Assembly (NCBI GenBank): GCA_024278935.1
Contig: JAJRSF010000019.1
Location: 1 to 39,110 of the forward strand
Length of the DNA: 39,110 nucleotides
Direction: 5' to 3'
Origin: Candidatus Zixiibacteriota bacterium
Lineage (GTDB): Bacteria > Zixibacteria > MSB-5A5 > GN15 > FEB-12
Under the pieces are notes generated by a model that was not told the origin of the DNA, did no database searches, and saw only the letters and a list, made by a program, of their open reading frames with translations. This document shows positions 14,041 to 25,031 of the stretch, one piece after another; positions within the stretch are counted from its first letter, which is position 1; each line of letters starts with the position of its first letter. The translations under genes were made by a program, and so were the position numbers.

Positions 14041-14628
14041 ATGAGACTGATAAAACGATACAAAAATAGACGGCTCTATGATATTGAAAAGAGCAGAACC
14101 ATTACCCAAGTCGATTTAGGTATGATGGTCAAACAGGGTATCGAAGTACAAGTTCTCGACACATCGACAGGCGATGATATTACTACCGAAGTACTTGGAC
14201 GGATACTGGTGACAGAATCAACCTCTTGGCAAGATGATTCAGATTCAAAGAATTTATTTAAAAAATTAATCTCTTTAGGAGGAGATAAATCTATGTCAGT
14301 ATTAAAAAACACAGTATTAGCCTCCATCGGTGCATTCCATGTAACCAAAGCGAAGGCTGAAAAAATTATTGATGATCTGATTAAACGTGGTGATCTAGAC
14401 AAATCGGATCGTAAAAAAGCAATTATGGAAATGCTTGAAAAAGCTGAAAAATCAACAGCTGATATCAGGGATAAGATTTCCAAAGGTGCCGACAAAACAC
14501 AAAAAGAAATCGCCTCAGTTGTCAAAAAACTTAATCTCGCCAAAGAAACCGATCTTCAGAAGATTGAGAAAAAAGTTGACAAACTAACCAAACTTATGAA
14601 AAGCATCGAAAAGAACCTCGACGCATAA
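14041..14628 (+). CDS. PhaR-type (PHB_acc_N) DNA-binding domain fused to a phasin-like coiled coil
   Basis: 195 residues. Residues 1-60 (RLIKRYKNRRLYDIEKSRTI, then VQVLDTSTGDDITTEVLGRIL) match the polyhydroxyalkanoate synthesis regulator PhaR N-terminal domain, which binds DNA and PHA. After a short linker, residues about 85-195 are helical and rich in Lys, Ala and Glu (AFHVTKAKAEKIIDDLIKRG; later DLQKIEKKVDKLTKLMKSIE). They resemble the phasin/PhaF granule-associated coiled coil. In most bacteria these activities are on separate proteins. Family homology begins at the first residues, so the ATG at 14041 must be right even though it lacks a leader. No PHA synthase is in the window, and a granule-linked regulator role is inferred. 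Confidence 0.8.
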   Translation: MRLIKRYKNRRLYDIEKSRTITQVDLGMMVKQGIEVQVLDTSTGDDITTEVLGRILVTESTSWQDDSDSKNLFKKLISLGGDKSMSVLKNTVLASIGAFHVTKAKAEKIIDDLIKRGDLDKSDRKKAIMEMLEKAEKSTADIRDKISKGADKTQKEIASVVKKLNLAKETDLQKIEKKVDKLTKLMKSIEKNLDA

Positions 14629-14973: not shown

Positions 14974-15951
14974 TTACCCGATTGCTTCGTGTAACTCTTT
15001 CAAAAATTGTTGTGTATCTACATTGTGAATCCGACAAGCCATGTCAACTGACTCATAAGTCTGACCCGGGCAATCAAAACAGCCACCACCAAAATACTTT
15101 TGAAATACATCAGTAGACTTGGGAAAGTTTGCGATTACTTCACCGATGAGAGTATTCTCATCAACTGATGATGCATCCCCAATAGAGTCTGTCATATTGT
15201 CAAAGTCAGGCTTTGTCGTAAACCCATTTCCTTGTAATGCCGTCTCAATTTTTAAAATCATACCATCAAGATCAAGCGAATGATTGGCGGCTGCCATACC
15301 AATCGTGATACCCATCTGACGAACCTTGTCAATATGTCCGGGCATCTGTAGCGACAACAATCCGCTATCGATTAGTACCTGCTGTAGCGATGGAAGCCTG
15401 TCAATTAAGTCCGACACTTTTGTATCTGGTGTCACCGACATATTCGGCATGGTGGACTCATCAACAACAAACGAATGCTGGTTTGAAACTATTGGCTTTG
15501 CAGTTGGCAGAGGTTGTGATGGTTCTTTTTGTTCTGGCGTTACAGTGTCAACTTTTTTAGGGGAGAGGGTCAGCCAAACATTGATAATAAACATAAAGAT
15601 TGAAATTGCTTGGAGGGTAGCAAAGATTATAAACAGGATCATATAAATATCTTCACCGGTAGCTACTTGCATTCCTCGAAAAGCAACCATACCGACCAAA
15701 GAAATATTACCAAGGTAAAAATGAATTGCAACCCATGACTCAAACCTGAGATCAACGCCATTAAAACGAGGTAGGATAAAATAGCCGATTCCAAAAATAA
15801 TCATCGACATAAAACCAAGTAGATTAAAATGAGTATGTGCAAAAACGCCAAAGTACCCAATATCAGCAATGCCATTGAGGATGCCGAAAATGACAGCCAG
15901 TCCTAAATATATCAACGAAGCAAAAACAAAATTTTTCATATAAAAAGTCAT
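14974..15951 (-). CDS. Haem-copper-oxidase-like four-helix membrane domain fused to two DUF1858-like domains
   Basis: 325 residues. Residues 1-130 hold four predicted transmembrane helices. The second carries FAHTHFNLLGFMSMIIFG and ends in FILPRF, as in helix II of cbb3/NorB-type subunit I where His binds haem. Only four helices are present, so this is not a full oxidase. After a Pro-rich linker, residues about 175-245 (TKVSDLIDRLPSLQQVL...) and about 265-325 (IGEVIANFPKSTDVFQKYFG then GCFDCPG) are two DUF1858-like helical domains. The second keeps the CxxCPG motif typical of this family. DUF1858 modules often occur with hemerythrin, RIC/ScdA or NO-related proteins. AGGAG at 15958-15962 supports the ATG at 15951. 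An FNR/DNR-like site upstream suggests control by low oxygen or NO. Function is inferred. Confidence 0.8.
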   Translation of the reverse strand: MTFYMKNFVFASLIYLGLAVIFGILNGIADIGYFGVFAHTHFNLLGFMSMIIFGIGYFILPRFNGVDLRFESWVAIHFYLGNISLVGMVAFRGMQVATGEDIYMILFIIFATLQAISIFMFIINVWLTLSPKKVDTVTPEQKEPSQPLPTAKPIVSNQHSFVVDESTMPNMSVTPDTKVSDLIDRLPSLQQVLIDSGLLSLQMPGHIDKVRQMGITIGMAAANHSLDLDGMILKIETALQGNGFTTKPDFDNMTDSIGDASSVDENTLIGEVIANFPKSTDVFQKYFGGGCFDCPGQTYESVDMACRIHNVDTQQFLKELHEAIG

Positions 15952-16007
15952 ACATAACTCCTATCTTAAAGTTATCCATATAAACGGAATATAGGCTAAT
16001 AATGTCT

Positions 16008-16021
16008 TTGATTTAGGTCAA
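16008..16021 (-). promoter_or_regulatory. FNR/DNR-type operator upstream of the DUF1858 membrane-protein gene
   Basis: On the plus strand TTGAT-TTAG-GTCAA, on the minus strand TTGAC-CTAA-ATCAA. This matches the Crp/Fnr-superfamily half sites TTGAT-N4-(A/G)TCAA. A +1 at the class II distance (-41.5) would be near 15973, with TTTATA (minus strand, 15984-15979) at the -10 position. A better-looking TATATT lies a little nearer (15993-15988). Confidence 0.5.
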
Positions 16022-16034
16022 GAAATAGGAAGTA

Positions 16035-18046
<2,012 letters not shown>

Positions 18047-24735: not shown

Positions 24736-24764
24736 TTGACTTATGTCAAATTATTGTCCTTAAT
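24736..24764 (+). promoter_or_regulatory. Promoter overlapped by an FNR/CRP-type palindrome upstream of a small lipoprotein gene
   Basis: TTGACT (24736-24741), 17-base spacer and CTTAAT (24759-24764) form a possible sigma-70 promoter. The -35 box is part of a perfect inverted repeat TTGAC-TTAT-GTCAA (24736-24749), with the half-site spacing of Crp/Fnr-family operators. If it activates at -41.5 the +1 would be near 24784. If the marked -10 is used, the site covers the -35 box and would more likely repress. The rest of the 24532-24806 gap is A/T-rich with nothing else recognised. Confidence 0.5.
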
Positions 24765-24806: not shown

Positions 24807-25031
24807 ATGAAAAAATTATTAATTCTCACAGCGGTTTCACTGATGACATTTTCTTTGATGGTTGGATGTGGCGATAAAGCTGACGAGGCAACCGACAAGG
24901 TTCCTGTTGAAACTAAAGCTGCCGACATGGCCGATTCAACTCGCATGGATGAGATGGTTGACTCTGCTTCACAGATGATGGATTCCACAATGGCTGATTC
25001 TGTTGACGCACACGCAGGTCACGATCACTAA
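24807..25031 (+). CDS. Small lipoprotein with His-rich C-terminus
   Basis: 74 residues. The signal peptide MKKLLILTAVSLMTFSLMVG ends in lipobox LMVGC (Cys 21). The mature part is acidic and Met/Asp/Ser-rich (DSTRMDEMVDSASQMMDS) and ends HAGHDH, a likely metal-binding tail. TAGGAGTAACAA gives an excellent ribosome site. It is monocistronic, with a palindromic operator upstream and a perfect-stem terminator downstream. The Met- and His-rich composition suggests periplasmic copper, zinc or nickel handling, but this is inferred. It belongs to no family I recognise. Confidence 0.75.
   Translation: MKKLLILTAVSLMTFSLMVGCGDKADEATDKVPVETKAADMADSTRMDEMVDSASQMMDSTMADSVDAHAGHDH

Follow-up and report, generated by a model that had tools for sequence, protein, structure and literature searches.

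The gene at positions 14974 to 15951 (minus strand) of a 39,110-nucleotide stretch of Candidatus Zixiibacteriota DNA, hereafter the window, encodes a 325-amino-acid protein in which a four-transmembrane (4-TM) domain resembling part of haem-copper oxidase subunit I is fused to two DUF1858 domains. The gene lies behind a palindrome of the FNR/DNR/HcpR type that is conserved in most related loci. The explanation that we favour, tentatively and as somewhat short of evenly probable when taken as a whole, is a membrane haem protein induced by low oxygen or nitric oxide (NO), whose thiol module would stand in for Hcp and RIC.

The gene was delineated from the list of open reading frames (ORFs), Pfam matches and relatives, and its source genome is 3.4 Mb in size and 95% complete. 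Two named proteins match the product at 61-77% identity, both from Candidatus Zixiibacteriota. The ATG start codon aligns across the fused relatives, and a likely ribosome-binding site, AGGAGTT, can be read from the sequence at 15956-15962 (minus strand). According to the ORF list and the locus table, the C-terminal frame of ligA (16035-17645) lies next upstream in the same orientation, and of 24 tabulated carrier loci 20 have ligA in this place. In the window, ligA is divided between two minus-strand frames (17687-18046 and 16035-17645; region 16035-18046), which reflects either an assembly frameshift or a broken gene. Downstream of the fused gene, a 195-amino-acid ORF occupies the opposite strand (14041-14628). 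Rfam gave no match anywhere in the window.

Likeness of the membrane domain to oxidase subunit I

Judging from profile comparisons and a predicted model, the four-helix membrane domain (residues 1-135; 15547-15951, minus strand) is genuinely homologous to haem-copper oxidase subunit I, but only to part of it, and corresponds to helices IX-XI of CcoN. The AlphaFold models, built from three alignment rows, have mean pLDDT values of 62.4 and 69.9, which is low-to-moderate confidence, and the latter places four helices at approximately residues 3-29, 35-64, 72-98 and 101-129, the same number as in a preliminary description of this DNA. The match to Pfam COX1 (PF00115) falls at profile positions 315-396, which are the late helices, and scores 17.8 bits for the whole protein and 19.8 bits for the domain, below the cut-off of 34.8. 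A 20-row profile of the membrane domain finds CcoN chains among PDB entries (E 2.4e-5 to 8.6e-4) and aligns AHTHFNLLGF on GHVHxGALGW; the HxH motif and the Y/P/R and HFW landmarks of CcoN are in register.

We compared a 27-row extended profile with five CcoN proteins, using 150 hydropathy-preserving shuffles of each as controls. CcoN residues 290-450 (unit 3) gave 37.5, 38.8, 42.8, 37.5 and 37.5 bits, scores that no shuffle reached for any of the five, and on this basis the late-helix match is secure. The match to helices I-IV (unit 1, residues 0-170) is suggestive, at 6.8, 5.4, 16.4, 4.5 and 9.1 bits with 0, 3, 0, 5 and 0 shuffles per 150 reaching these values, and that to the middle region (residues 150-310) is weak (5.1, 5.2, 4.3, 1.5 and 4.6 bits; 2, 0, 2, 18 and 5 shuffles per 150). 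The quinol-type NO reductase (qNOR) of the same genome scores 13.8 bits against the membrane profile, with 0 of 150 shuffles reaching this score. Two other members of the group align best with the first COX1 unit (the L018 protein at 51-145 and a Mesorhizobium protein at 5-151), and the remaining members align to approximately 307-402 of the COX1 profile. Haem-copper oxidases have three-fold pseudo-symmetry. The late-helix and helix I-IV matches, together with the placement of the L018 and Mesorhizobium proteins on the first COX1 unit, suggest that the membrane domain resembles one four-helix repeat.

The preliminary description recognized HTHFNLLGF (residues 39-47) as the haem-ligand helix of a cbb3/NorB-type subunit I. 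The cbb3 homology and the retained ligand His bear this out, but the helix is X rather than II; we rejected helix II as the best-matching helix because helix X scores far higher. A better fit to a non-haem family lacking this His, which had been named as the contrary outcome, was not found. By the same evidence the window protein is not itself a haem-copper oxidase. A full subunit I spans the membrane about 12 times and draws its His ligands from helices II, VI, VII and X, whereas this protein has four predicted helices, no Cu ligands and, of the ligand-bearing regions, just the HxH region of helix X. Foldseek searches with the AlphaFold models, which are weak, produced no match at E<=0.001, and 6xkw_n and 8smr_E appear only among the weak matches of the full-length model. 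Among the 50 matches listed by VIA, most are soluble four-helix bundles with Z up to 14.6, which is about chance level for helical bundles. The Priestia relative matches DUF2871 (PF11070) weakly (E 0.0039), whereas the window protein has no match to this family.

H41 and G46 are invariant in all 27 relatives of our conservation set (20 Zixibacteria, two Thermus, one Priestia, one Mesorhizobium, two Rhizobium and one Maritalea), and the position of H77 is His in 24 and Gln in three. H39 is kept in 19/19 fused forms, in 7/7 distant relatives and in one of the six short Zixibacteria forms, as counted from alignment and tree rows. The codons of H39-T40-H41 are at 15829-15837 (minus strand). In the HxH motif of oxidases the first His binds the high-spin haem and the second the low-spin haem, and H41 sits at the low-spin ligand position of helix X. 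In full oxidases, helices II and X supply both ligands of the low-spin haem. The predicted helix limits put H77 at the beginning of helix 3, on the membrane face opposite H41, so one chain would offer a single ligand at the level of H41. On this predicted helix geometry we rejected a haem shared by H41 and H77 within a single chain; H41 of another copy would be needed to provide the second axial ligand. Both ends of the protein should be cytoplasmic, judging from K6, from R62 and R69 in loop 2, and from the two Lys residues after helix 4.

The domain could instead be a haem-free anchor of oxidase descent, in which case H41 would play a structural part and the protein would tether the DUF1858 thiol domains to the membrane. 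The loss of H39 in five of the six short forms and the absence of a full ligand set within one chain would both fit such an anchor, and the haem of the favoured reading is itself a prediction. However, H41 is invariant in all 27 relatives, which include very distant ones and some without DUF1858, and we regard the anchor as rather unlikely. The haem is nevertheless the weakest link of the explanation that we favour.

Tandem DUF1858 domains and the distribution of the fusion

The first DUF1858 domain (15259-15432, minus strand; 29.7-30.2 bits) is separated from the membrane helices by a linker, falls within residues 165-250, is degenerate and lacks Cys. Taken alone it scores 30.2 bits, just below the PF08984 cut-off of 32.2; its H206 and H224 are invariant in the aligned fused rows. 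The second domain (residues 264-316; 15004-15162, minus strand; 43.2-43.7 bits) exceeds the same cut-off, at 43.7 bits, and also that of TIGR03980, the hybrid-cluster-protein-associated redox disulfide domain (60.6 bits; cut-off 44.95). It contains C291-x-x-C294-P-G and a third Cys, C306, and these three Cys and H309 are invariant in 10/10 aligned fused rows. The tandem arrangement and the CxxCPG motif given in the preliminary description are therefore both present, with the first domain the weaker match. Proteins with DUF1858 or TIGR03980 domains are usually small and soluble. The window protein shares their CxxC in its second domain, but differs in having a tandem, with a first copy that lacks Cys, on a membrane unit.

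No other DUF1858 or ScdA_N match occurs in the genome. The N-terminal ScdA_N domain of RIC/ScdA/YtfE proteins is related to them, but ScdA_N scores only 22.9-27.7 bits here (cut-off 32.5) and the window protein, unlike RIC, has no Pfam match to a hemerythrin-like di-iron domain; RIC membership was rejected on these two grounds.

A pair of one degenerate and one intact DUF1858 domain would also fit an NO or O2 sensor, in which a ligand on the H41 haem would cause a change of shape that switches the cytoplasmic DUF1858 thiols, which in turn act on a partner. The retention of HxH in 19/19 fused forms and the DNR-type regulator described below point in the same direction. However, no output domain or partner gene was identified, and the invariant position is that of the low-spin rather than the high-spin ligand, which argues for a six-coordinate haem and against a sensor. 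We consider the sensor improbable. The preliminary description had proposed that a signal or ligand might be passed to the soluble domains. Since the haem-ligand position is predicted to be near the outer face and the DUF1858 domains are expected inside, a direct hand-over would be geometrically awkward.

A search with the full protein gave matches in 33 of 61 relatives, many of them through DUF1858 alone. The membrane profile matched 30 of the 132 genomes of the phylum that were scanned. The small membrane unit is present in 25 of these, all in one family (f1), and the other five have open frames of 434-724 amino acids, four of which are of CcoN size. The two-domain fusion occurs at 19 loci (L001-L012, L015, L022, L060, L064, L065, L072 and L075) and short or one-domain forms at six, counts from which we omitted G001, where the DUF1858 part alone is present after a run of N. 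The same fusion, which the preliminary description suggested seeking in relatives, was thus found and is confined to one Zixibacteria family. In a tree of the 4-TM domain the fused forms cluster, requiring 2 changes versus a shuffled mean of 10.3. Beside the short forms we found no separate DUF1858 gene, the only such domain being the one fused in L018. This locus encodes a membrane unit with a single DUF1858 domain, a possible intermediate.

Outside the phylum, 25 plasmid records match at E<=0.01, 21 of them from Thermus, and a search from the Priestia protein retrieved 67 records, mostly from Rhizobium. The Thermus plasmids encode a 4-TM protein of 125 amino acids, labelled hypothetical, whose ORF overlaps nsrT, the cupin gene (L054:11968-12345). 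The ORF follows Rrf2, DUF542 and cupin genes and lies opposite norC-norB and nirS, and T. parvatiensis keeps the Rrf2-DUF542-cupin-4TM row. Rhizobial and related plasmids (L093-L096) carry unnamed stand-alone relatives of 125-136 amino acids that keep the invariant His, one of them directly after a cupin gene. Unlike those of Thermus, the stand-alone proteins of rhizobia, Maritalea and Priestia adjoin unrelated genes.

The Thermus nsrRST cluster resembles the fusion in that a 4-TM unit is near an ScdA-domain protein, together with an Rrf2 regulator and a cupin and opposite norCB, but these are separate genes. In the passages that describe this cluster, NsrS (ScdA domain) and NsrT (cupin) are presented alongside NsrR and are proposed to act in Fe-S repair, and the 4-TM ORF is not mentioned in that account (PMC5748679). 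DrpB of Thermus, with one DUF1858 and two DUF2249 domains, is another case of DUF1858 in a nitrate-respiration protein, although the passages on DrpB mention no membrane unit (PMC6282519). Among the results of literature searches on four-helix or one-third oxidases, DUF1858 and DUF2871, we recognized no description of a protein such as that encoded in the window.

The upstream box and its candidate regulator

Pattern searching and conservation identify the palindrome TTGAT-TTAG-GTCAA (TTGATTTAGGTCAA; TTGACCTAAATCAA when read on the gene strand) at 16008-16021, and it lies 57-70 bases upstream of the ATG, as the preliminary description had placed it. The palindrome occurs at 66 sites genome-wide, versus 11 for the reversed control. 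Within the window there are two pattern sites versus a mean of 0.44 expected, and 9 of 100 shuffles reach two. Because this count is unexceptional, the case for the box is built on conservation. Of the 19 fused loci, 15 have retained a match to TTGAY-N4-RTCAA at positions -70 to -78 relative to the aligned ATG (positions for L060 and L012 are tabulated from an earlier TTG), and none of the six short forms has one. Four boxed fused loci have no ligA upstream (L005, L011, L015 and L075). The four boxless fused loci all belong to one genus, g30 (G032, G075, G076 and G077). In a boxless locus of this genus (L007:1410-1503), TATATAAT occurs downstream of the expected place of the box, and perhaps represents a switch to constitutive expression.

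We inspected eight further boxed regions of the genome, picked mostly by similarity to the core. In these regions, boxes are found ahead of an Fe-S/FAD oxidoreductase with cytochrome b (two boxes), of Mrp-Nfu Fe-S carriers and of two multihaem cytochromes c. Another box is intergenic with no obvious target (L051), one has no ORF of at least 110 amino acids close by (L043), and two fall inside ORFs (L052 and L053). A second FNR/DNR-type palindrome in the window (24736-24749) precedes a plus-strand ORF (24807-25031) of 74 amino acids whose N-terminus resembles that of a lipoprotein.

The genome encodes one HTH_Crp_2 protein, of 225 amino acids, whose single Cys is not N-terminal. Its best PDB relative is DNR of Pseudomonas (3dkw, E 1.1e-28), with FNR-type entries near 1e-7. 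DNR senses NO. A classic [4Fe-4S] FNR was rejected, as the regulator lacks the cluster cysteines. Of the FNR/DNR-type control first proposed, the DNR-like regulator and the conserved box remain, but not a classic FNR; the lack of any FNR/DNR homologue, which had been raised as an objection, does not apply to this genome.

At a threshold of E<=1e-20, close homologues of the regulator are present in 12 of 15 boxed carriers and in none of four boxless carriers. The three boxed carriers without one (G005, G073 and G074) are 85, 70 and 78% complete, respectively. Among genomes that are at least 90% complete, a homologue is found in 9/9 boxed and 0/3 boxless carriers (Fisher p = 1/220, where the one genus amounts to one loss event); box and regulator are lost together in this genus. 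Relatives of the regulator with approximately 37% identity are located within approximately 3 kb of hcp in four genomes (G019, G026, G034 and G043), which places the regulator in an HcpR/DNR-like group. Rodionov et al. listed HcpR sites TTGACnnnnGTCAA in two cyanobacteria (PMC1274295), and the NnrR regulon of Bradyrhizobium includes a DUF1858 gene (PMC6710368).

Association with NO reductase and a proposed function

The genome carries caa3 and cbb3 oxidases, named from their gene neighbours, and a 745-amino-acid qNOR. The qNOR gene is directly behind a gene for an Rrf2-family regulator (L047:3628-6331). Among the 37 genomes of family f1 in the set of relatives, with G001 counted as fused and relatedness uncorrected, qNOR is present in 9 of 14 fused carriers versus 3 of 23 others (p 0.003), or in 8 of 14 fused carriers when the weak match in G007 is left out (p 0.008). 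Strict dependence on NO reductase was rejected, as 5 of the 14 fused carriers lack qNOR. Hcp occurs in 0/14 fused carriers versus 6/23 others (p 0.065), and neither Hcp nor RIC was found in the genome of the window.

The association with qNOR, the presence of caa3, cbb3 and qNOR together in this genome, and the Thermus member that adjoins norCB raise the possibility of a subunit with an accessory or assembly role. Helix contacts like those within oxidases would dock the 4-TM unit on a full oxidase or NO reductase, whose metal centres the DUF1858 domains would help to mature or protect. However, the carriers without qNOR do not fit this role, the gene is beside ligA (20/24 loci) and not in an oxidase or NO reductase operon, and stand-alone relatives occur in other contexts. 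We consider such a subunit unlikely.

In the explanation that we favour, a DNR/HcpR-class regulator would turn the gene on under low oxygen or NO. The four-helix part, in which His41 probably binds a predicted low-spin haem b, would represent one of the repeats that make up the haem-copper oxidase fold. The two DUF1858 domains would be in the cytoplasm, the second serving as a CxxC + C thiol centre. The result would be a membrane-held, redox- or NO-responsive thiol module that may protect iron enzymes or help to restore them, replacing Hcp and RIC.

A more specific form of this idea, which we hold to be doubtful, is that a free-standing single oxidase repeat forms a homo-oligomer in which His41 residues from adjacent copies coordinate a low-spin haem, and in Zixibacteria acts as a DUF1858-linked membrane switch controlled by NO or low oxygen. 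Such a His41-His41 haem would mimic the contributions of helices II and X. If true, the protein would serve as a present-day model of the unit that gave rise to the oxidases, or else be a reduced descendant of them. Small four-helix relatives of oxidase subunit I are present, unnamed, in rhizobia, Bacillales, Thermus and Zixibacteria, and the fusion ties this unit to the DUF1858/RIC domains of nitrosative stress, whose chemistry is poorly understood. If one of these relatives binds haem as an oligomer, the view that haem-copper oxidases consist of repeated four-helix units would become testable in a protein of 125 residues.
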